From: a virus | Virus record (IMG/VR): IMGVR_UViG_3300033145_001791 | Span: 1-28,106 of that record | Reading direction: 5' to 3' (one strand) | DNA: 28,106 bases | Part shown: in pieces, positions 9,322 through 26,377 of the stretch | How positions within the stretch are numbered: position 1 is the stretch's first letter | Layout of the letters: the number at the start of each line of letters is the position of its first letter | Position numbers and translations under genes: made by a program | The notes under the pieces: model-generated | Databases searched by the model: none | What the model saw: only the letters and a program-made list of their open reading frames with translations | What the model was told of the DNA's origin: nothing

Positions 9322-9662
9322 ACATCACCTCCGGCAATTGTCGGTTTGACACTTGCAATATAACGCCCCGTTTCCGTTCCATTTTCTTCTTCAAGCTTTT
9401 TCTCGAAATCCTTAATCAGTGAATCAAGTAAATCTGCCCGACTTCTAAGACTTGCAAGCTTAGTTGATTCGGTGCCGGTTGTATCGGCCTCCAATAATTC
9501 TTTACGCAATCTCATTTTTAATATTTTAGATAATTCAATAACCGCATAATAAACAGAACTGCCCTCATCGATAAATAAAGCAATTTGCGCGTCTGTGAAA
9601 TCATCGGACCCGGCGTCGTCTATGTATAGTCTAACTTTTATTATCTCTGCCGCTGTTGCCAT
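9318..9662 (-). CDS. gp6-like head-tail connector (adaptor) protein
   Basis: 114 residues, all-helical and acidic: MATAAEIIKVRLYIDDAGSD, then FTDAQIALFIDEGSSVYYAV, a helix rich in L/R (ILKMRLRKELLEAD) and DLLDSLIKDFEKKLEEEN. The pattern (first helix ending in ..D, a DF.D.QI..F.. motif, then long helices) is that of HK97 gp6-type adaptors that bind below the portal. The start overlaps the sulfotransferase stop (TAATG). In most siphophages this gene follows the capsid gene directly; here 5 kb of modification genes intervene. Confidence 0.65.
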   Translation of the reverse strand: MATAAEIIKVRLYIDDAGSDDFTDAQIALFIDEGSSVYYAVIELSKILKMRLRKELLEADTTGTESTKLASLRSRADLLDSLIKDFEKKLEEENGTETGRYIASVKPTIAGGDV

Positions 9663-10252
9663 TATTTTTCACTCCTATTTTTTTTTACAAGATGATTTCT
9701 GTTATCCCTGACATCTTTTAATTTTGTTTTAAGTATCAACTCTAAAACAACCGGTCCATGTACGATAAAATCCTCAAACAACACAACAGGTATTTTCAAA
9801 TCATCAATAATTTTATTGTAATAACTCTGGACATGCAAAACCTCTTTTTCATTTACCATTTTATTTCTTTTTGTCCAGAATGAAAGTAAACCCTCCGGCG
9901 TCCTCTTGACACCTACCACAATATGAGGCGGCAGATATGGTTTCCATAAATGATAACATAACGTCATCCAGGGCTGCTTGATTCCCCAGCTTCCCCGCCG
10001 ACTTGAAACCAGTTTTTTTATACTTCTTGCAATTTTATTATTCATATTTAATTCAGTCGGTAAATACATCGACTGTAAAATATTATTTCCCATCATTCTT
10101 TTTAAAATCTGGACCGCCTCTTGATCTTCATAAGTGCATTTTTCCTGATAACTTCCTATTTTTTTCGGCCTCATATCAATACCGGAATCATGTAATGTTT
10201 TAGAAACAAGCGAGGTTCCTGATTTTGACATACCTAATACTATTACTATCAT
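9662..10252 (-). CDS. Sulfotransferase-family protein
   Basis: 196 residues. Residues 1-15 (MIVIVLGMSKSGTSLV) form the first strand and the 5'-phosphosulfate-binding P-loop of PAPS-dependent sulfotransferases (GxxRSGTS pattern, with K for R). Residues about 93-99 (WGIKQPW) give the conserved K-P segment, and about 112-126 (VVGVKRTPEGLLSFW) match the 3'-phosphate-binding strand-loop with R, P and a downstream S. The family transfers sulfate from PAPS to sugars, lipids or tyrosines. It is shorter than most family members (250-300), so the acceptor-binding part is reduced. Start: GGAAGG lies 16 bases upstream, a rather long spacing. It closes the modification island, 1 base after the ATP-grasp gene. 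Host PAPS would be needed. Confidence 0.75.
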   Translation of the reverse strand: MIVIVLGMSKSGTSLVSKTLHDSGIDMRPKKIGSYQEKCTYEDQEAVQILKRMMGNNILQSMYLPTELNMNNKIARSIKKLVSSRRGSWGIKQPWMTLCYHLWKPYLPPHIVVGVKRTPEGLLSFWTKRNKMVNEKEVLHVQSYYNKIIDDLKIPVVLFEDFIVHGPVVLELILKTKLKDVRDNRNHLVKKNRSEK

Positions 10253-10253
10253 T

Positions 10254-11123
10254 TTAATATTTCTGTTCCTTCCATTTATTCCCCATTTCTATATCATACT
10301 CATGAGGGACGATTGTTCCCATTCCAGATATAGGGAGGTGAGTTAATTCTGATAAATAAAAATTATTTTTACACACTAAAAAATCCACTCTGCAATGGTC
10401 AAAAGTATTCACACATATTTTTTCAGATAATTCAATCAATTCTTTTGTAAAATTTGATAACTCAATTTTTCCGATGAGGTGGGCATTCCATTTTATATTT
10501 AATTTTTCAAAATTGCGATTATAAGTCGTTATAGCATCAATAAAAAATTTCTTTCCTTTTTCTTCTCTGTATTCATAAATTTCAATATATTTTACTATCC
10601 CTGAAAATGTTACAAATCTATAAACAAGTGGTAATTTGTTATTATCCAAAATAAATTCCTCTCCGAATATTCGAGGCGTTATATGTTTATAAACCCATTC
10701 CAGCTTTTCTGCTCCGTATGGTTTCGTAAACCAACCCCGGACCTTTTCATATATTTTTTTTCTTTTTTTAATCGGTGTGTTTGCTTCCATTATTCGTATT
10801 CTACCCGACGCATTATTAGATTTTAATATATATTTATTTTCATGGGCCGGTAAAAAATTATATTTATAATCTTTATCTAAAATATAAATTATTTTCGCGA
10901 GGTGTTTTTCAAAACTTTTTCCTATTTTATCGACTACATATTTTCTGACTAATAATTTATCACTGGTTAATGTTAGCACTGGATTCCTATCATATATTTT
11001 TTTATACATGAGTTTTTCAAGATATGTCTGGGGGTTTTTTAAATTGCATTTATACCCAGATTTTTTCTCAAACCTTTCTAAGTTATTTTCAATTTCTTCA
11101 TCGCTGTAGCTATCAATTTTCAT
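10254..11123 (-). CDS. TupA-like ATP-grasp enzyme
   Basis: 289 residues. The N-terminal segment (NPQTYLEKLMYKKIYDRNP, then LTSDKLLVRKYVVDKIG) matches the TupA-like ATP-grasp family, in which a K.W./D.r...aDK..vR.yv...G signature precedes the ATP-grasp core. YILKSNNASG (about 96-105) is the nucleotide-binding strand/loop, and VDFLVCKNNFYLSELTHLP (about 248-266) the Mg-binding strand with E followed by the GMG loop. The founding member links polyglutamate to teichuronic acid; many relatives lie in polysaccharide clusters. Here the neighbours are glycosyltransferases, so joining an amino-acid or other carboxyl group to a glycan is a reasonable inference, not shown. Confidence 0.7.
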   Translation of the reverse strand: MKIDSYSDEEIENNLERFEKKSGYKCNLKNPQTYLEKLMYKKIYDRNPVLTLTSDKLLVRKYVVDKIGKSFEKHLAKIIYILDKDYKYNFLPAHENKYILKSNNASGRIRIMEANTPIKKRKKIYEKVRGWFTKPYGAEKLEWVYKHITPRIFGEEFILDNNKLPLVYRFVTFSGIVKYIEIYEYREEKGKKFFIDAITTYNRNFEKLNIKWNAHLIGKIELSNFTKELIELSEKICVNTFDHCRVDFLVCKNNFYLSELTHLPISGMGTIVPHEYDIEMGNKWKEQKY

Positions 11124-11585
11124 CTAAAAATTCCAATCGTTTAATTTATTATAATAATTATGCCACCAATCATTTCCCCTGACGGTGATATTTCCTCTCA
11201 AGAGATATTCCTCACTTTTTAATTTTCCATGAATAACAAGATTGCCATCCATTTTGAAACCACCCAGCATTATCAAATCGCCTTCGCAAACCAAATCCCC
11301 TTTTACATGAAAAAAACTATTTTCTGGAAAAAAAACTGATTGCCTGATTATTATTTTAGGAGCCTCTACAATCAAGCAGATTCTTTGTGGGAAATAGATT
11401 GCTCCGCTTTTTATTTTTCTTTTTCGTTTTAAAAAATCTGTTAATATATATTCTTCATTCCCTTGAAAATCAATAATAATAATTCCATTAAAATTTATTA
11501 GATATCCTTTACCGAGGTTCTTGCATTTATCATTATAATAATCTTTTATATTGTTATAATTTATTAACAATATATTTTTTTCCAT
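11124..11585 (-). CDS. Beta-repeat (bactofilin-like) protein in the glycan island
   Basis: 153 residues from the ATG at 11583-11585, which overlaps the upstream stop (TAATG) and has AGGAGG 5-6 bases before it; a longer frame from 11606 is less likely. Residues about 85-145 show short repeats of the form hydrophobic-x-G-x-hydrophobic (HVKGDLVCEGDLIMLGGFKM, then DGNLVIHGKLKSEEYLLRGN), as in bactofilins and other beta-solenoids. The N-terminal half has KGYLINFNGIIIIDFQGNEEY. No catalytic residues are apparent. It may be a scaffold or binding protein for the modification enzymes. Ends one base before the ATP-grasp gene starts. Confidence 0.5.
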   Translation of the reverse strand: MEKNILLINYNNIKDYYNDKCKNLGKGYLINFNGIIIIDFQGNEEYILTDFLKRKRKIKSGAIYFPQRICLIVEAPKIIIRQSVFFPENSFFHVKGDLVCEGDLIMLGGFKMDGNLVIHGKLKSEEYLLRGNITVRGNDWWHNYYNKLNDWNF

Positions 11586-12154
11586 TACACCCTCCTGACA
11601 AACCATGTATGATTGACGTCGGTTTCAATATCTTCTTTTTTAAAAGCCTCATCAACGGCGTCGTCAATTCCTTTGAAATCCGGTCTTTTTTCGTGGTGGT
11701 AATCATGTCCACCTATCCACCCACCGGCCTTGACTTTCGGCAACCATAATTTTATGTCAAGGGCTGTCCCGATATAGCTATGATCCCCGTCGATGAAAAC
11801 AAAATCAAGACTATGATCCGCAAAAAACTCAATAGCTTTCTTGCTTGTCATTCTAAAAATCATGGCGCGCTTTCCCGCAAACCTAACAGCTTTCAAGGTG
11901 TTGTTATATGCCTTATTATGTTCTTTCTGTGGTTTTGATGCGTTTTTATCTTTTTGGGCCGCCCAGGAATCGTCTTTGTGTGGGACCTTCCAGGGGTCCA
12001 CCATTATATGAATGAGTTCAGGTCTATCATTTAATAGCCGTTGTGCCGTGTTACCGTTTAATACTCCGATTTCGGCACCCTTCAATTTTTTCTTTTTCGG
12101 CAACCTTTTTAAAATTGCATCCCAGCGCATAGGTTTATTATATTTTTTTATCAT
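11585..12154 (-). CDS. Class I SAM-dependent methyltransferase (Methyltransf_24-like)
   Basis: 189 residues. Residues about 26-41 (GAEIGVLNGNTAQRLL) are the SAM-binding motif I (E/DxGxxxGxxx). VDPWKVP gives the acidic end of strand 2. LDFVFIDGDHSYIGTALDI (about 116-134) is the strand-4 motif with the metal- or substrate-binding D-G-D-H, and VKAGGWIGGHDYHH follows as strand 5. This arrangement is typical of Methyltransf_24 and cephalosporin-hydroxylase-like enzymes found in glycan clusters, where sugar hydroxyls are methylated. It follows the second glycosyltransferase with a 17-base overlap. Confidence 0.8.
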   Translation of the reverse strand: MIKKYNKPMRWDAILKRLPKKKKLKGAEIGVLNGNTAQRLLNDRPELIHIMVDPWKVPHKDDSWAAQKDKNASKPQKEHNKAYNNTLKAVRFAGKRAMIFRMTSKKAIEFFADHSLDFVFIDGDHSYIGTALDIKLWLPKVKAGGWIGGHDYHHEKRPDFKGIDDAVDEAFKKEDIETDVNHTWFVRRV

Positions 12155-12845
12155 TACAATATCCTTTCCATTTCTTAATTATAGGTTTCAAGATTTCTTT
12201 TAAAAGTTCATTGTCGAGTCTATCAAAACAGGCAAGTCTTAATTTTGATTTTATGTGTACTACTCTTGTCTTTTTATTCAGATCTTTCCATTCCGACTGT
12301 GTAGCATTCCATTCCAGGCAGGGCAACTCCAATAAATTTATATCAAGTTTATTACCGACGGTCATATGTAAGCCGGCTTGATCGATACCACCATGTGACC
12401 GGATGAAATCTGTTTTTTCTACAAAATTATTTATCAAATAATTAGTATTTTGCATCCATTTTTTAACAAATAATCTTGACCTTTTCGACGGTCGATAAAA
12501 CCAAATTCCGGTATTACATTTCGCCTTGTTTCTATTTCTAACAGTAATCGCGATATCAAATTCCTTGTCTACAATATTTTTTATTGACCTTAAAAACATT
12601 AAATCGACGTCACAAACAGCAATTAATTCTTTTGATTTTAAAACATAATTTACAGCAATATCAAAAGCATATTTTACATCTTTTTTAATCCGCCGATATT
12701 TATTTTTATCATTATTTATAAATAAAGGAGGTTTAATTATTTCATAAGACATGCCGGGCATAACATCATGAAGCGATTTTTTAAAAACTGTTAAAAGTTT
12801 TTTATATCTGTTTTTTCTTGCAAAACAAACCGTCAATATTTTCAT
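12138..12845 (-). CDS. Glycosyltransferase, GT-A type (second copy)
   Basis: 235 residues. MKILTVCFARKNRYKKLLTV starts a Rossmann-like strand; AVCDVDLMFLRSI (about 76-88) carries the DxD motif that binds the nucleotide-sugar metal. Then CNTGIWFYRPS (acceptor-side loop), FIRSHGGIDQAGLHM, LELPCLEWNATQSEW and VVHIKSKLR (His in the second metal-binding position). The same blocks occur in the same order in the 380-residue gene upstream (CDMM, NGGIMMARP, GMNQSAFGY, LEWNAVDCDW, VHYKSKLR), so the two are paralogues. Members of this fold use UDP-, GDP- or similar sugars; the sugar and acceptor are unknown. It overlaps both neighbours. Confidence 0.8.
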   Translation of the reverse strand: MKILTVCFARKNRYKKLLTVFKKSLHDVMPGMSYEIIKPPLFINNDKNKYRRIKKDVKYAFDIAVNYVLKSKELIAVCDVDLMFLRSIKNIVDKEFDIAITVRNRNKAKCNTGIWFYRPSKRSRLFVKKWMQNTNYLINNFVEKTDFIRSHGGIDQAGLHMTVGNKLDINLLELPCLEWNATQSEWKDLNKKTRVVHIKSKLRLACFDRLDNELLKEILKPIIKKWKGYCNDKKI

Positions 12846-13447
12846 GTCTCAACACCTCCGAGATACACAAAAGCGGCGCAGCAAAGACCCAACCAATCCT
12901 TGAGGTGATGAAAAAAATGTCCGTATTTTTTCATAAACTTAGGCTGACACTGGGCATCCGGTTCTTTCAGGTGTCTCAAACTCCAGTAATAATCCATTAA
13001 AACAATAACAGTTTTACCCGGAATCCATGCCGGTGAAAAAGTTTTAATTGCATGATTAAATTTTCTGTCTCTCTTACAGACGTCGTCGACATACATGGAA
13101 ATCGGTTTTTTAATATCCCATTCAATATTTGTTATATTTTCTTTATGATAAATTATTTTTGTCTTATATTTTTCAAGGTTTTCTTTAACCAGTGGTAATG
13201 TATCCTGTTTGTTTTCCAGTGTAACGCCGTCGCGCGCGGCTTTTTCAATTTCCGATCCTCTGACCTCAAACCTATCAAAACAGTGAATTTCAACATCCTT
13301 TCCAGAATCTTCAACACCTAACGCCAATTGTTCAGTCCCAGCGCCTAACCATGTCCCTAATTCTACAATCGAAGTACCTGGGATTGATTCAGACGCCCAC
13401 ATCCTTAATTCCGCGCCTATCTCACGACCACTCATAGATGGAATCAT
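12842..13447 (-). CDS. SAM-dependent methyltransferase-like protein (first copy)
   Basis: 201 residues. SIVELGTWLGAGTEQLA (about 26-42) is the SAM-binding loop. HCFDRFEV supplies the strand-2 acidic residue, ISMYVDDVCKRDRKFNHAIK is at the strand-4 position, and TVIVLMDYYWSLRH at strand 5. The D-D in place of D-G-D-H and the DYYW after strand 5 resemble enzymes of the Methyltransf_24 group such as TylF/macrocin O-methyltransferase-like proteins. The C-terminus is hydrophobic (GLCCAAFVYLGG). Start ATG overlaps the glycosyltransferase stop (ATGA), and its own end overlaps the next glycosyltransferase by 4 bases, forming glycosyltransferase-methyltransferase units. Substrate unknown. Confidence 0.7.
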   Translation of the reverse strand: MIPSMSGREIGAELRMWASESIPGTSIVELGTWLGAGTEQLALGVEDSGKDVEIHCFDRFEVRGSEIEKAARDGVTLENKQDTLPLVKENLEKYKTKIIYHKENITNIEWDIKKPISMYVDDVCKRDRKFNHAIKTFSPAWIPGKTVIVLMDYYWSLRHLKEPDAQCQPKFMKKYGHFFHHLKDWLGLCCAAFVYLGGVET

Positions 13448-14586
13448 TTAACCCGCCTTTTTATTATTTTACTTCTAACCCGTTTTTTCTTTTTTTTTCT
13501 AATTATATATTGATTTGAGGTTAATTTAATCCTACCGTGTCCTCTTGTTATACTGTTTAATTCTTTATTTTTTTTATCTCTTCTGCTTGTTATCTCTTCA
13601 AGTTCTTCTATTTTTTTATCTTTTTCTTTATTTAAAGAAATCAATTCTTTTAATTTTTTATCACGTTCAGTGCTTAAAATCAGATTTGCTTTAAGCATTT
13701 TGGTTTTTTCTTTTATCATAATTTTATTTTCTTTTATCTGTCGGTCTTTTTCTTTTATAACTATTTTATTATATCGTATTTTCCTATCCTTTTCTTTATT
13801 TTCTTCAATTTTCTTATCGCGTTCTGCGGTCAGGTCATGCAATTCTTGAATCTTGATTTTTTCAATTCTTTTCATGTCTCTGATATCGATAAATTTATTT
13901 CTCATATCATACCACATCTTCATAACTTTCTTATAATTTCCGAACGGTATTTTATTTGCCAGAATCAATTTTCTTAATTTGGATTTATAATGGACAAACA
14001 CCGTCGAGTTATTAATTAGGTGCCAGTCACAATCCACCGCGTTCCATTCCAGCGTTTTATATTTATGGACCTTCGCGCCGTGGTGTCCCTGTTCATAGGT
14101 ATAACCAAAGGCGGATTGATTCATTCCCGCATACCGCCGCCGCCACCGGTGGTGAAAGTCAACATCTTTTAACATTTTCCTATTAACATCCCTCATCTCT
14201 TTGAAAAATGCACGCGCCGCCGCCGTAGGTCGGGCCATCATAATCCCGCCATTCATAGGGATTCTTTTTACTATGGTCCTGGCCGTAAACGCGACGTCAA
14301 ACGGAATGTCAAAAGCATGCTCCGCGTTTTTAATCGCCATCATATCGCAATCTGCAAAAATAACGTTTTCATCTGTTTTATTGAGATACTCAAGCCATAT
14401 ATTTAATTTAAAATCGTTGTAATTAAAGTTAAGCGGTCGGCCTGTTTTATTGACAGGCGCATCGGTTCGAAATTCGATCAATTCAACACCCGGCATATAT
14501 ATTTTTACTGATTCTCTGAAAATTTTCAGAAGTAGTGAATATTTTGGGCGGTGTGGATAATCAAATTGAACAGTTACAATTTTCAT
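13444..14586 (-). CDS. Glycosyltransferase, GT-A type, with basic coiled-coil tail (first copy)
   Basis: 380 residues from ATG at 14584-14586. The frame is open upstream to a GTG at 14634, but that extension is the terminator hairpin, so I reject it. The catalytic domain (1-255) has VIFADCDMMAIKNAEH (DxD, about 79-81), NGGIMMARPTAAARAFF, the NQSAFGYTYEQGHHG block, LEWNAVDCDW and VFVHYKSKLRK. The remainder (about 255-380) is a highly charged coiled coil of imperfect repeats of the type xKEKDxKIxENK, ending in a very basic stretch (IRKKKKKRVRSKIIKRRVK). That tail is absent from the paralogue and may bind DNA, membrane or virion. No Shine-Dalgarno precedes the ATG. Confidence 0.78.
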   Translation of the reverse strand: MKIVTVQFDYPHRPKYSLLLKIFRESVKIYMPGVELIEFRTDAPVNKTGRPLNFNYNDFKLNIWLEYLNKTDENVIFADCDMMAIKNAEHAFDIPFDVAFTARTIVKRIPMNGGIMMARPTAAARAFFKEMRDVNRKMLKDVDFHHRWRRRYAGMNQSAFGYTYEQGHHGAKVHKYKTLEWNAVDCDWHLINNSTVFVHYKSKLRKLILANKIPFGNYKKVMKMWYDMRNKFIDIRDMKRIEKIKIQELHDLTAERDKKIEENKEKDRKIRYNKIVIKEKDRQIKENKIMIKEKTKMLKANLILSTERDKKLKELISLNKEKDKKIEELEEITSRRDKKNKELNSITRGHGRIKLTSNQYIIRKKKKKRVRSKIIKRRVK

Positions 14587-14598
14587 AATTTTTTTTAT

Positions 14599-14638
14599 AA
14601 AAAACGAGGTGGAAAAACATGAAAACATCCCCACCCCG
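14599..14638 (-). terminator. Rho-independent terminator after the capsid gene
   Basis: On the minus strand an 8-bp stem (CGGGGTGG pairing with CCACCTCG, one G-U pair; plus-strand positions 14631-14638 and 14605-14612) with an 18-base loop is followed by six T residues. It lies 21 bases after the capsid stop and just before the glycosyltransferase ATG. The stem also works on the plus strand, less well. It should lower transcription of all genes downstream relative to capsid. Confidence 0.75.
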
Positions 14639-16422: not shown

Positions 16423-16935
16423 TTATATCTCTTCATATTCTGAACTGATTAATTCAGAATCCTTTTTATCAAGTTTTACAATATTGGTTTTAGCTGTGAA
16501 ATCGGCCTCTTGAAATGAAAACGATAATACTACGGGGTTTTCTTTAGCTGTTTTTATTTCAGCAGCAAGCGCCTCGTCTGTCTGAATATCTGTTTTCACA
16601 TATGCCTCGGCGGCCTGTCTCTTCAAATTCGTTTCTTCTTTTCCATCAATTTTTACAATTTCAGTTCCAAAAGCCTCGGACATTAATTTTTCACGGGTGT
16701 TGTTATACGCCTGAGTCTTCACCTTTTCCTCATTCGCCTGCATTTCCTTGATTGTTTCTATAGGTTTATCACCTACTATTTTTATAATACTACCAACCAA
16801 CTCAAGCGCGGCGGTATGTTTGTCGGTTACAATTTCTATACCCAGACTTTTCGCAAGTTCCTTTTTTGTTACGGTCCCGTTTTCTATCTGGTTACTAAGA
16901 TTTTTTATCATATCTTTGAATTGATCATCTGGCAT
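16423..16935 (-). CDS. Nested scaffolding protein (internal start within protease gene)
   Basis: An in-frame ATG at 16933-16935 (MPDDQFKDMIKNL) has a perfect AGGAGG at 16944-16949, 8 bases upstream, in the middle of the protease coding sequence. Translation from it would give 170 residues, the charged helical half (QIENGTVTKKELAKSLGIEI and the C-terminal EYEEI). This is the arrangement known for lambda C/Nu3, in which scaffold is made from an internal start so it exceeds protease. The internal ribosome site is much better than chance, but expression is inferred. Confidence 0.65.
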   Translation of the reverse strand: MPDDQFKDMIKNLSNQIENGTVTKKELAKSLGIEIVTDKHTAALELVGSIIKIVGDKPIETIKEMQANEEKVKTQAYNNTREKLMSEAFGTEIVKIDGKEETNLKRQAAEAYVKTDIQTDEALAAEIKTAKENPVVLSFSFQEADFTAKTNIVKLDKKDSELISSEYEEI

Positions 16936-17565
16936 AATATAAGCCTCCTGTTTAATTTTTGGATTTTCAGAATCCGTTTTATCTTTATTATCTTTATTAA
17001 CTTTTTGATCCATCGCACCCATTCCGACCTCGACGGCGTCGTTTCGTTCGCCTTTGACGGATCTAATGGCGGTGATTTGTTTTATCATACCATTTTCATC
17101 AACTTCAATCAGATCCTCGGTCCAGGCAACTATTGAAAAATGTTTTAAACCTAATTTAGTATCCTGAATAAATCTTGTATTTGATGATTTTTCGCCTTCC
17201 GGTGGGATATAGTTTTTTAAAAAAACTTTGTTTTTTTCAATTTTTGCACCTATCAGATAAAAGTCGTTATCCGGTGTTTTAGATCCATAATATGTATGTC
17301 CTTCTTTTGAGCCGGGAATAGGTCTTTTATTTAATACTTTCAGATAAGACTCCCAAAATTCCTTTGAAAATACAACCCGATTTGCAGCCTCCGTAATATC
17401 AAGTATCTCTTCAACTGCATAATATGGTTTATTATCATCTTTTTGAATCATTTCAAGCTTTTTTGCCGGTATCAGTGTTGGTATTGTTTCGGGGTCGATA
17501 GATAGGTTTATATGTGTTTTACAGGATTTTGGGTCTTCGGAAAGTATTTTTTTACATTTTTTCAA
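16423..17565 (-). CDS. Prohead protease fused to scaffold domain
   Basis: 380 residues from a TTG start, with GGGAGG 9 bases upstream (an ATG 7 bases further is out of frame). N-terminal residues 1-200 fit a capsid maturation protease: GHTYYGS (candidate catalytic His), then KVFLKNYIPP, KHFSIVAWTEDLIEVD (Ser after FxI strand) and the loop ITAIRSVKGERNDAVEVGMG, which resembles protease C-terminal beta strands in S14/U35-like prohead proteases. Residues about 210-380 are helical and charged (scaffold-like, EMQANEEKVKTQAYNN, REKLMSEAFGTEI). Position before decoration and capsid agrees. A second start inside gives the scaffold alone (next entry). Catalytic assignments are inferred. Confidence 0.7.
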   Translation of the reverse strand: MKKCKKILSEDPKSCKTHINLSIDPETIPTLIPAKKLEMIQKDDNKPYYAVEEILDITEAANRVVFSKEFWESYLKVLNKRPIPGSKEGHTYYGSKTPDNDFYLIGAKIEKNKVFLKNYIPPEGEKSSNTRFIQDTKLGLKHFSIVAWTEDLIEVDENGMIKQITAIRSVKGERNDAVEVGMGAMDQKVNKDNKDKTDSENPKIKQEAYIMPDDQFKDMIKNLSNQIENGTVTKKELAKSLGIEIVTDKHTAALELVGSIIKIVGDKPIETIKEMQANEEKVKTQAYNNTREKLMSEAFGTEIVKIDGKEETNLKRQAAEAYVKTDIQTDEALAAEIKTAKENPVVLSFSFQEADFTAKTNIVKLDKKDSELISSEYEEI

Positions 17566-17571
17566 AGAAAT

Positions 17572-17586
17572 AGCCTCCCAGCTACT
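17572..17586 (-). promoter_or_regulatory. Shine-Dalgarno region of protease/scaffold mRNA, antisense target
   Basis: On the minus strand this reads AGTAGCTGGGAGGCT and contains the GGGAGG ribosome site of the protease/scaffold gene. Its exact reverse complement (15 of 15 bases, AGCCTCCCAGCTACT) is present in the plus-strand transcript at 18185-18199, in the loop of a terminator. See the antisense finding. Confidence 0.7.
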
Positions 17587-17598
17587 ATATTAACTATA

Positions 17599-17626
17599 AT
17601 TATATCTATATTTCTTTTTCTGTCAA
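17599..17626 (-). promoter_or_regulatory. Consensus sigma-70 promoter of the head-to-tail operon
   Basis: Minus strand TTGACA (17626-17621), 16-base spacer, TATAAT (17604-17599). Both hexamers are exact. The transcript should begin about 17592, giving a leader of roughly 27 bases before the protease/scaffold start codon. It faces away from the plus promoter 30 bases to the right. Confidence 0.85.
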
Positions 17627-17656
17627 GGTTTTTTTTATTTTTTTTTCGGAATTCGC

Positions 17657-17685
17657 TTGACTTTGAATGCCGGTTGTGGTATATT
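17657..17685 (+). promoter_or_regulatory. Sigma-70 promoter of the small regulator cassette
   Basis: TTGACT (17657-17662), 17-base spacer, TATATT (17680-17685), two mismatches from consensus. Predicted start about 17692, 47 bases before the first ATG. Divergent from the leftward promoter; the -35 boxes are about 31 bases apart, so a protein bound between could control both. Confidence 0.75.
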
Positions 17686-17738
17686 ATACATAGATAGTGA
17701 ATGTGAAAGCATAATAAACGCTATCGAGGAGAGAGATT

Positions 17739-17915
17739 ATGAAAGATTTGACTTATAAAGAAGCAAGAGAAAAATATAATTATGTCATACAACATGAAGC
17801 CGGAGGCAAGGTATACCATTCTCTTATATGGGCAAAAAAAGCAGCTATTAAAAAGGGTGGTGCCTGGTTTGTTAACGAAAATCTTATTAGTGCAAAAAGT
17901 CTTATAGAAAGATAA
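17739..17915 (+). CDS. Small helix-turn-helix-like protein
   Basis: 58 residues, with GAGGAG a short distance before the ATG. The core, SLIWAKKAAIKKGGAWFVNENLI (residues about 28-50; shown in part as IKKGGAWFVNENL), resembles the recognition helix plus wing of small MerR/excisionase-type DNA-binding proteins, in which a basic helix is followed by GG-W-FV and an acidic helix start. First gene of the plus cassette, so a regulator of the divergent promoters or of excision is plausible. Family match is from pattern only. Confidence 0.65.
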   Translation: MKDLTYKEAREKYNYVIQHEAGGKVYHSLIWAKKAAIKKGGAWFVNENLISAKSLIER

Positions 17916-17924
17916 GGAAAATGT

Positions 17925-18122
17925 ATGAAGAGAGTAAAATTCCCGATAGGGGTACCGGAGACGGCAAAATTATTAAAATTGTCTGAAAGGACAATCAGAA
18001 AACATTGTAAATTATTAGGTGTACAGAAATTAGGAAATAAATCTTTTTCTCAATATCTGTTGACTGAAAATGATTTGAAAAAATTAAAAAAGGCTGATAT
18101 AAAAAGACGGTGTGTCGGGTAA
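17925..18122 (+). CDS. Excisionase-like helix-turn-helix protein
   Basis: 65 residues, start ATG with AAGGA 8 bases upstream, 9 bases after the preceding stop. Residues 9-30 (GVPETAKLLKLSERTIRKH) are a clear helix-turn-helix, followed by a basic wing (KLGNKSFSQYLLTENDLKKL), the layout of Xis / HTH_17 proteins (winged helix with V-A-L-x-S-x-T pattern). Ends in a basic tail. Either a transcription regulator for the flanking operon or a recombination directionality factor; no integrase is in the window, so the former is more likely. Confidence 0.75.
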   Translation: MKRVKFPIGVPETAKLLKLSERTIRKHCKLLGVQKLGNKSFSQYLLTENDLKKLKKADIKRRCVG

Positions 18123-18143
18123 CCGTGCCAATCCTGACAGCGT

Positions 18144-18214
18144 ACAACTGCTATAAGCTGTTGTCCTTCTATAACCGGGGTATAAGCCTCCCAGCTACTG
18201 CCCCGGCTTTTTTT
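18144..18214 (+). terminator. Two-hairpin 3' end with terminator; loop is antisense to the protease ribosome site
   Basis: First hairpin 18144-18164 (ACAAC/GTTGT plus GC/GC, U-U mismatch, 5-base loop). Terminator: CCGGGG (18175-18180), 20-base loop (18181-18200), CCCCGG (18201-18206), then CTTTTTTT. The loop is unusually long and 15 of its 20 bases (18185-18199) are the exact reverse complement of the protease/scaffold ribosome-site region at 17572-17586. An exposed single-stranded loop of this type is the usual form of fast-pairing antisense RNAs. Confidence 0.7.
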
Positions 18215-18224
18215 AAGGAGTTAT

Positions 18225-18344
18225 ATGGTAAAAAAAAATGTGTCTTTTATTATAAGGGCTTTTAAAAAATGTGTCACTTTAGCAATAGAATTTAATAAAC
18301 AAATAAAATGTTTTTATTTTAGCATGGGAAGGAATAGAAAATGA
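18225..18344 (+). CDS. Tiny protein of unknown function (39 residues)
   Basis: ATG at 18225-18227 with AAGGAG 4-5 bases upstream, just after the terminator T-run. Encodes 39 residues, basic and hydrophobic (MVKKNVSFIIRAFKKCVTLA), possibly a short amphipathic helix. Its TGA overlaps the ATG of the next gene (ATGA), which supports translation as a pair. No family recognised. Confidence 0.5.
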   Translation: MVKKNVSFIIRAFKKCVTLAIEFNKQIKCFYFSMGRNRK

Positions 18345-18529
18345 AATATATTGATATCAACTTAGAAGATAAAAAATATCTTACAGAGATGTTAAAAGAA
18401 AATTTGAAATTAATAAAAAATGATACTCAAAGAAGTATCGAACATTTTGACAAGCTTTTAAAAATAATAATTTCTCTTGAAATTGAGATATCAAAAGAAT
18501 CAATTAAATTGCCGGCAAGTACTGATTAA
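18341..18529 (+). CDS. Small helical protein of unknown function (62 residues)
   Basis: Starts at the ATGA overlap with GGAAGG 8 bases upstream. It is an almost wholly helical, lysine- and glutamate-rich sequence (YLTEMLKENLKLIKNDTQRS, then HFDKLLKIIISLEIEI). It converges with the MuF gene and overlaps its last 26 bases on the opposite strand. Last gene of the plus cassette, no recognised function. Confidence 0.55.
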   Translation: MKYIDINLEDKKYLTEMLKENLKLIKNDTQRSIEHFDKLLKIIISLEIEISKESIKLPASTD

Positions 18530-19520
18530 CATACCAGTTATCAAGATATGGCACGCCGACGCCCTGCCCCCAGTCCACAAGATCATTAACAAACTCGTCA
18601 CGGCCTATTATGATATGCGTAATATAACACATTCCATTTGGGTGTGGATAATCCGGAACCTCTTCTACCAGGTATGGTGAATCAGCAGCAATATCAGGAC
18701 ATGGATCATCAGCGGGGCGGGTTACACCACCGGTCAAGTTCCATTTATATTTTCTAACAGCTGGATTCATTTTCCCTTGAAATTTCGCGGCGTCCTGTAA
18801 AGAAATAAATAATTCAGACCGAGCCAACCGTAACGCGCGCCAATCAATATGTTTTGGAATCCTTTTCGCGAATGCTGAGGTTCCTTCGACTAAGTCCCCG
18901 TATCTTTTCATAACGCCTTTTTTACCGTGCACGGCGTAAACAGTCAAATCTTTTGCAATCTGCAGAACATCTCTATTTTGAGCCAGTCCCATCGTAACAA
19001 TTTTTTTTACATCAAATTCCCAGTGTTTTGCAAAACCCGGTAAATATGGTTGTTTGTCGGAACCGGGAAACCCCCATATCCTATCGCTGAAATTATAACC
19101 ATCCTGCCAGACTCTTGAATGTGTCAATCCAATTAATGTTTCATTTAATTGTGAATACATTTTTTCGATGACACCAAATTCTATTCTGTCGATATCAGCA
19201 ATACCCAGGGCGTCGCCCCAATACGTTAGATGAGGTTGATTCGTGATTGTTATGGAATCGTCGATACTATTAATTATTATCTGTTCAGAGCCGCCCGCAA
19301 TTCGCGCGCCTGTTTTTCTTAAAGTTGTTTCCAACGATTTCAAGGAGGCGGCGGTTAATGATTTTCCTTTACCTTTCAGGTTAAGAGTTTTTATCTTTTC
19401 CGCCACCTCGTCGGCGGCATCAATATATAAGTCGCCGAGGTCTTTGTTGACCTGTTGGAATACTTTCCTGTATTCTATTCTGGATTGTCTCTGGGCCTCA
19501 TAGAATTCTGATTGTGTCAT
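18504..19520 (-). CDS. MuF-like minor head (head morphogenesis) protein
   Basis: 338 residues. The C-terminal half has the MuF signature: RALRLARSELFISLQDAAKF (helix with R-x-x-x-R-T/S-E), then KYKWNLTGGVTRPADDPCPD and PHPNGMCYITHIII, the cysteine/histidine-containing final motif of SPP1 gp7/Mu F relatives. The N-terminal half is helical. The protein binds portal and enters the procapsid. Start overlaps the portal stop by 4 bases. Confidence 0.8.
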   Translation of the reverse strand: MTQSEFYEAQRQSRIEYRKVFQQVNKDLGDLYIDAADEVAEKIKTLNLKGKGKSLTAASLKSLETTLRKTGARIAGGSEQIIINSIDDSITITNQPHLTYWGDALGIADIDRIEFGVIEKMYSQLNETLIGLTHSRVWQDGYNFSDRIWGFPGSDKQPYLPGFAKHWEFDVKKIVTMGLAQNRDVLQIAKDLTVYAVHGKKGVMKRYGDLVEGTSAFAKRIPKHIDWRALRLARSELFISLQDAAKFQGKMNPAVRKYKWNLTGGVTRPADDPCPDIAADSPYLVEEVPDYPHPNGMCYITHIIIGRDEFVNDLVDWGQGVGVPYLDNWYVNQYLPAI

Positions 19521-23927: not shown

Positions 23928-23957
23928 GCAAAAAACCCCAATATATGAAAAATTAGG

Positions 23958-24331
23958 GTTCCCTAAAATATTACACTTTGTAATTTTTTAATTATATATA
24001 ATATAAGGAGTTAGAGAGAGTCCCTTATTTTTCTGACAAATTGGGTTGGGGGGGGTGTTATATTTAATTCCTTATGGCATAAGGAGTTACGTGATTTTTC
24101 ATCGTTTCCTGACAATATTACACAATCTATAGACATAGGTAAAACACAAAAAATATATAGGTAAATTCCTGAATTTTTTTTTATTTTTCCAGACGTATCT
24201 ATAGATTTGTGTAATATGTGTAATATTGTAATATTTTAGGGAACTATTATTACTATTAATTAATCTATTAATGATATATATATATATAATATAAGGAGTT
24301 ACGCCCTTTTTTTTTAGGGAACACCCCCCCC
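23958..24331. repeat. Inverted repeats in the divergent region
   Basis: Three pairs: GTTCCCTAAAATATTAC (23958-23974) with GTAATATTTTAGGGAAC (24228-24244), 17 bp exact; GGGGGGGGTGTT (24048-24059) with AACACCCCCCCC (24320-24331), 12 bp exact; and an imperfect pair around 24112-24133 and 24196-24217 (TCTATAGATT-GTGTAATAT type, one base inserted). They are not concentric, so one cruciform cannot use them all. Confidence 0.65.
23995..24301 (+). repeat. Direct repeats TATATAATATAAGGAGTTA (three copies, one partial)
   Basis: The 19-base sequence occurs exactly at 23995-24013 and 24283-24301; the core ATAAGGAGTTA(CG) recurs at 24079-24091. Each copy is followed at varying distance by TTTC(T/C)TGACAA (24029-24039, 24103-24113 and 24370-24379 approximately). 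AAGGAG resembles a ribosome site, but no start codon or useful frame follows except a 13-codon GTG frame after the second copy. Confidence 0.7.
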
Positions 24332-26289: not shown

Positions 26290-26377
26290 TGCGGGTTAGT
26301 GTAATGGAAGCATTTCAGGGCTGGAATAAAATCTTTCTTGCCGATGGAAAGAGGCGGTTCAATTCCGCCACCCGCAA
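26290..26377 (+). tRNA. tRNA-shaped element (88 bases, serine-like) with disrupted anticodon stem
   Basis: Acceptor TGCGGGT (26290-26296) pairs with ACCCGCA (26370-26376), 7 of 7. D-arm GTGT/GCAT with the canonical loop AATGGAA containing GG. T-arm GGCGG/CCGCC with loop TTCAATT, perfect. A variable-arm-like hairpin TCTTTC/GAAAGA (26332-26352) suits a class II tRNA. A GGA anticodon after U33 (26323-26325, Ser) is possible, but the 5-bp stem there (CAGGG against AAAAT) has no pairs. CCA is not encoded. Either a decayed tRNA or a tRNA mimic. Confidence 0.5.

Follow-up and report, generated by a model that had tools for sequence, protein, structure and literature searches.

Leader of the protease/scaffold gene and a plus-strand hairpin

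The window analysed here, meaning the whole stretch of 28,106 nucleotides, is a 28.1-kb record from a tailed phage that has not been cultivated. The genes for terminase, portal and head morphogenesis point leftward; next come a protease/scaffold gene, a small open reading frame (ORF), the probable gene for the major capsid protein (assigned by position, with a match to phrog_3116), and a tail module that includes a tape-measure protein. A plus-strand cassette is located between the head-morphogenesis gene (18504-19520, leftward) and the protease/scaffold gene (16423..17565, minus strand, TTG start). The subject of this report is a 15-base plus-strand sequence that complements the leader of the protease/scaffold mRNA, and recurs in the loop region of a hairpin encoded by the cassette. 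In our interpretation, this phage-encoded hairpin probably acts as an antisense RNA that covers the ribosome site on the protease/scaffold mRNA and represses its translation.

The 15-mer, AGCCTCCCAGCTACT, is present on the plus strand in direct orientation at 17572-17586 and 18185-18199, both copies being exact as the original prediction had it, and no further copy was found in the window at ≤2 mismatches. The two copies compare with an expected number of 0.02, and 0 of 100 shuffles gave two. Exact 15-mer repeats with nine or more G/C did not arise in any of 2000 shuffles of the surrounding 2-kb region, and repeats of any composition arose in 18 of the 2000; based on the GC-rich repeats, the earlier view that such a match is very unlikely by chance holds. 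On the minus strand, the leader target (17572..17586) reads AGTAGCTGGGAGGCT, and its GGGAGG ribosome site (17574-17579) lies eight bases 5' of the TTG start (17565), which bears out the claim that the complement of the 15-mer covers the ribosome site of this gene. The predicted leftward promoter of the protease and capsid genes, TTGACA-16-TATAAT (17599..17626, minus strand), matches the consensus at 12/12 positions, with a like spacing to the leader in the three relatives considered below. Judging from the promoter spacing and the -10 box, the mRNA is predicted to start ~5–8 nt before AGTAGCTGGG, and the antisense target would therefore be the extreme 5' end of the mRNA.

The second copy is part of a hairpin at 18175..18206 (plus strand) with a folding energy of -18.7 kcal/mol (z -3.2). 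Its stem is formed by CCGGGGUA/UGCCCCGG (18175-18182 with 18199-18206) and is extended by an inner AGC/GCU stack, which leaves an apical loop of 6 nt, CUCCCA (18188-18193), rather than the 20-base loop first described. A U-tract (18208..18214, plus strand) makes the window hairpin terminator-like. The plus-strand genes do not end at this terminator: an AAGGAG ribosome site and two small ORFs are located directly downstream, namely a 39-aa ORF (18225..18344, plus strand), and a 62-aa ORF (18341..18529, plus strand) that shares bases with the stop of the former and with the end of the head-morphogenesis gene. The predicted divergent cassette promoter, TTGACT-17-TATATT (17657..17685, plus strand), sits back to back with the protease promoter, and the relatives have a similar promoter after their leader.

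As for the target, an AlphaFold model based on 14 homologues (mean pLDDT 74.5, pTM 0.47) was compared with known structures by Foldseek, which returned the T4 prohead protease gp21 (PDB code 5jbl; E 7e-4) with low TM-scores, as well as other viral prohead proteases, including an annotated prohead core protein serine protease (E 1e-10). The C-terminal half is mostly helical, in line with a fused scaffold. These fold matches lend moderate support to the protease/scaffold identity proposed earlier, and we consider it moderately likely that the target is a prohead protease of the T4 gp21/herpesvirus capsid protease fold.

Loop, leader and stem in four phages

Since single-protein scans of IMG/VR for relatives gave no match, IMG/VR was scanned with the 15-mer itself. 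The scan returned 21 loci, three of which (L095, L104, and L100) encode the same protease. L127 is an extended contig of L100, and the comparison thus covers four phages: the window, L095, L104, and L127. Close relatives were not found in INPHARED and PLSDB; scans of genome collections with head-protein and protease alignments gave no relatives, and therefore no host was identified, and a terminase-profile search gave solely unrelated matches at 26–39% identity.

The head-morphogenesis proteins share 51–62% identity in every pair among the four phages, and the leader 15-mer is identical in all of them. In whole-record searches with the 12-base core, allowing ≤1 mismatch, each of the four records holds exactly two copies, a leader copy and a copy within a plus-strand hairpin. 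Both 15-mer copies are exact in L095; in L104, the hairpin copy differs at the first base, and in L127 it carries one C-to-T change that keeps a G-U pair to the leader. A TTGACA-16/17-TATAAT-like promoter is kept in 4/4 phages, with the -10 box ending 24–26 nt before the end of TAGCTGGGAGGC, and the TTG starts, as read from the sequences, are kept as well. The spacing between the two copies varies from 603 to 3250 nt. The cassette proteins are unrelated between the phages, the sole match being trivial (15 residues), which leaves the RNA, and not a regulator protein, as the constant part.

All four hairpins have the hexaloop CUCCCA closed by GC/GC, but among them are three unrelated stem sequences, one of which is shared by the window and L104. 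Swapping stem arms between phages abolishes folding, except for the window/L104 pair; for L095 and L127, the own arm gives -20.1 and -21.5 kcal/mol, respectively, compared with -4.6 to -14.5 kcal/mol for swapped arms. There are thus three independent stems, and as far as can be judged from sequence comparison, this is what selection on the loop, with a stem that can be replaced, would look like. No reading frame is conserved across the hairpin, which rules out a coding constraint there. A role as terminator only was also ruled out: the U-tract is present in L104 and absent in L095 and L127, which keep the loop, and the conserved object is therefore the loop and not the terminator. Relatives that keep leader and terminator without the complement would have spoken against antisense pairing; the opposite is seen, with two phages losing the U-tract terminator and keeping the complement. 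Likewise, the proposal that the copy is a relic of a duplicated leader is disfavoured by its position in a hairpin loop in three unrelated stem contexts. G-U pairs in the stems and in an upstream pseudoknot fit the plus strand, where the minus strand would have A-C mismatches, which assigns the functional RNA to the plus strand. As a separate observation, L104 has a second hairpin-like stretch at 1664-1690, GTCGGGGATAGCCTCCCGGCAC, which has GATAGCCTCCC in common with the antisense hairpin of L095 but not the remainder of the core, and may be what is left of an older copy after decay.

The net energy of the hairpin–leader interaction, calculated in a simplified ungapped manner as duplex energy including opening costs, is -16.3 (window), -21.1 (L095), -19.8 (L104), and -15.7 kcal/mol (L127). 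The best value among shuffled leaders is -5.7 kcal/mol, and the same computation for the 16S anti-Shine-Dalgarno tail gives -2 to -4 kcal/mol. The L095 hairpin forms 22 contiguous pairs with its own leader versus 15–19 with other leaders, and the L127 hairpin 26 versus 16. In these two phages, leader flank and hairpin flank have therefore changed together. Several differences between the copies in L127 and L095 keep G-U pairing, although they are too few for significance. The comparison thus brings together predicted hairpins, complementarity, conservation in four phages, and co-change in two of them, and we regard RNA pairing between loop and leader as well supported.

An H-type pseudoknot upstream of the hairpin is common to the window, L104, and L127 (18107..18140, plus strand, in the window; L104:3520-3558; L136:3118-3152). 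Its first stem is ACGGU/ACCGU in the window, CAGGU/ACCUG in L104, and ACGGU/AUCGU in L127, with all pairs kept through these changes, and its second stem is UGUYGGG/CCUGACA. About 30 nt of the pseudoknot are nearly identical in the window and L127 despite ~60% protein identity, and it has no Rfam match; more generally, no match to an Rfam family was obtained, with the best covariance-model scores far below the gathering score. Because L095 lacks the pseudoknot, it is perhaps an accessory element that adds stability. L095 and L127 share another hairpin, CCGGUG..GAARCCGG, as read by eye. One further locus, L135, was retrieved in a pattern scan for the pseudoknot and discarded, as it shares no protein with the window and looks like a chance match within coding sequence.

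Proposed mechanism and alternative explanations

Based on these comparisons, we propose that the plus-strand cassette RNA carries a stable hairpin that would display CUCCCA in its apical loop, and that the loop and its flanks would pair with the first ~20 nt of the leftward capsid-operon mRNA, including the Shine-Dalgarno sequence. Pairing would probably begin as a loop contact between CUCCCA and UGGGAG, and spread to a duplex of 15–26 bp that blocks ribosome binding. Synthesis of the protease/scaffold, and perhaps of the downstream capsid proteins too, would be restrained while the cassette RNA is abundant. Protease or scaffold made too early is plausibly harmful or wasteful for a phage, which would provide a reason for delay. 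An arrangement of the cis-antisense type, as in OOP or CopA, does not apply, since the distance between leader and hairpin ranges from 603 nt in L095 to 3250 nt in L127, and the hairpin lies beyond the divergent promoter rather than opposite the target sequence itself. The properties agree instead with a trans-acting antisense RNA: extended complementarity to the Shine-Dalgarno region comes from a separate position, and is kept or co-varies in the relatives. The original prediction of antisense action in trans gains, for its pairing component, a loop and leader conserved in four phages, replaced stems, and own-leader extension in two; that the hairpin is made in the divergent neighbour transcript, that both RNAs are made and meet each other, that the effect is repression, and that its direction and timing serve the timing or dosage of capsid production, is what we infer from this pairing.

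Several points weigh against this proposal. The sample is four phages, every one of them a metagenomic contig, and relatives at roughly 30–40% identity are without the hairpin/leader system. In L119, L120, and L122, which belong to this range, head and protease genes are adjacent, and a comparable repeat was not found in distant relatives with other cassettes (L113, L115, L116, L123, and L130); the antisense system, as traced in these sequences, is a clade-level trait. The window and L104 share one stem type, making their hairpins recognisably homologous, and they form 15–16 pairs with their own leader, with no own-leader preference beyond the core. As part of a longer mRNA, the hairpin may move less freely than a separate small RNA would. 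Finally, in 4/4 phages the plus-strand gene that comes next has its ribosome site just 3' of the hairpin, and control of that gene is possible.

A further-reaching variant, to which we give a low though not negligible probability, is a licensing switch in an exchangeable cassette, where the protease/scaffold would be silenced by cassette RNA until leftward read-through of the cassette from the portal and head genes yields a full-length complement of the antisense RNA and removes it. Translation of the protease/scaffold would then depend on expression of the upstream head genes, and the cassette proteins could be freely exchanged, with the RNA as the part that must stay.

Somewhat less probable is the reverse direction of control, in which the leader of an abundant late capsid mRNA would bind the hairpin loop to control termination or translation of the following plus-strand genes. 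The ribosome site directly after the hairpin in all four phages fits this view, and in L127 that site is GGGAGG and could pair with the loop in cis. Such cis pairing is weak in the other phages, however, and loop binding alone would not open a stem of 8–11 bp. The downstream genes are unrelated between the phages and offer no common regulated product, while the capsid ribosome site is constant, which makes this direction less likely than repression of the protease/scaffold mRNA.

We consider it improbable that the two copies are a duplicated site, i.e. a target-site duplication or recombination core from insertion or exchange of the cassette, with the complementarity as a by-product. The copies do stand in direct orientation on either side of gene content that varies, some close or distant relatives are without the cassette, and a 65-aa cassette protein has a weak excisionase-like match. 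Duplication does not predict, however, that the right copy falls exactly in a hairpin loop in three unrelated stems, and the replaced yet still pairing stems disfavour a target-site duplication or att core. The plus-strand ORFs also run on beyond the right copy, so the repeats do not delimit a mobile unit; the copy differences that keep G-U pairing in L127 and L095 point the same way, without being significant alone. No recombinase was recognised among the scanned cassette ORFs of the window, L104, and L095.

Proteins of the CsrA type bind GGA-in-loop motifs, and the leader RNA can be folded with GGGA in a small loop. A factor of this kind that binds the leader RNA, or one that binds the 15-mer as DNA, with the hairpin copy as decoy, is nevertheless very improbable: the plus RNA is the complement and not the same sequence, and cannot serve as an RNA decoy, the G-U pairs point to the plus strand as the one with the functional hairpin, and binding as DNA gives no reason for stems to form anew once their whole sequence has been replaced. 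Chance or plain common descent without function, which the small number of genomes and the homologous window and L104 hairpins might suggest, is hardly credible in view of the shuffling result (0/2000), a leader unchanged across phages with 51–62% protein identity, stem turnover around a constant loop, and the longer own-leader pairing in two phages.

Relation to known antisense RNAs and other features of the phages

Repression by the hairpin would resemble the action of the LhrC small RNAs of Listeria monocytogenes, which carry CUCCC in the loop of a terminator and in two further places, and impede translation of lapB mRNA by pairing around its Shine-Dalgarno sequence (PMC4132741). Both have a C-rich CUCCC loop complementary to a ribosome site. 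The phage hairpin differs in having a single loop, a 15–26 bp match, and a neighbouring capsid gene as putative target. A U-tract, as expected of an LhrC-like terminator hairpin, is present in the window and L104 and absent in L095 and L127. C-rich hairpin loops that touch ribosome sites through loop–loop contacts are also described for Staphylococcus aureus RNAIII and coa mRNA (PMC2837412); RNAIII is a long multifunctional host RNA with several targets, and has no sequence relation to the phage hairpin. Among phage antisense RNAs, the passages and table rows on targets in a 2025 review of phage small RNAs list lambda OOP (cII), P22 sar (ant), P1/P7 c4 (ant), lambda aQ, and PAK_P4as15 (endolysin), and the targets given there include cII, ant, Q, dnaN, and endolysin (PMC12197685). 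Like these, the hairpin would exert phage-encoded antisense control of a phage gene. The listed RNAs target regulatory, antirepressor or lysis genes, whereas the window hairpin would belong to a non-overlapping neighbour transcript, has its match in the hairpin loop, and would target a capsid protease/scaffold. No capsid-gene target is named in those passages and rows, and no phage antisense RNA against a capsid or scaffold gene was found in the open-licence literature, which does not prove priority. By analogy, the mechanism would thus resemble that of the C-rich loops of LhrC and RNAIII, with a capsid-gene target for which, within that literature, no phage precedent was found.

Phage antisense RNAs are known mainly for genes of lysogeny, antirepression and lysis; if our proposal is correct, capsid assembly genes would also be under RNA-pairing control. 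A conserved RNA in an otherwise unrelated cassette would provide a testable reason for the persistence of a cassette at this locus, and more cases could be sought with a simple rule, namely that the ribosome site of a leader recurs in the loop of an opposite-strand hairpin close by. In the plasmid copy-number systems RNAI/RNAII and CopA/CopT, complementary hairpins also start with a loop–loop contact. There, the two RNAs are read from the two strands of one and the same DNA, whereas the complement in the phage is a separate local copy.

The remaining features of the window cassette are a 58-aa ORF without family match (17739..17915, plus strand), the 65-aa ORF mentioned above (17925..18122, plus strand), whose weak match is to helix-turn-helix/excisionase-like families (PF12728, E 0.0012; phrog_2907, E 5e-4), and a predicted accessory hairpin, ACAACTGCTATAAGCTGTTGT (18144..18164, plus strand). 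In the cassette of L127 (4160-5988, minus strand), PAPS-reductase-like and ParB-like genes, as read from the sequence, are located side by side, reminiscent of IbrA/IbrB.

Outside the cassette, the structural operon of the window includes genes that read as glycosyltransferase-, methyltransferase-, and sulfotransferase-like (9662-14634), and homologues of this block have another order and place in distant relatives. A long divergent intergenic region at 23951-24301 holds three ~27-nt repeats ending in ATAAGGAGTTA (23987, 24063, and 24275). It also has several boxes resembling CTGACAATATTACAC and a pair of inverted arms, each of 25 nt, at 23951/24227; these elements probably belong to an origin or serve as the operators of an early/late switch. 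Near the right end of the window, ARAGORN predicts a tRNA-Gln (CTG) at 26290-26377.
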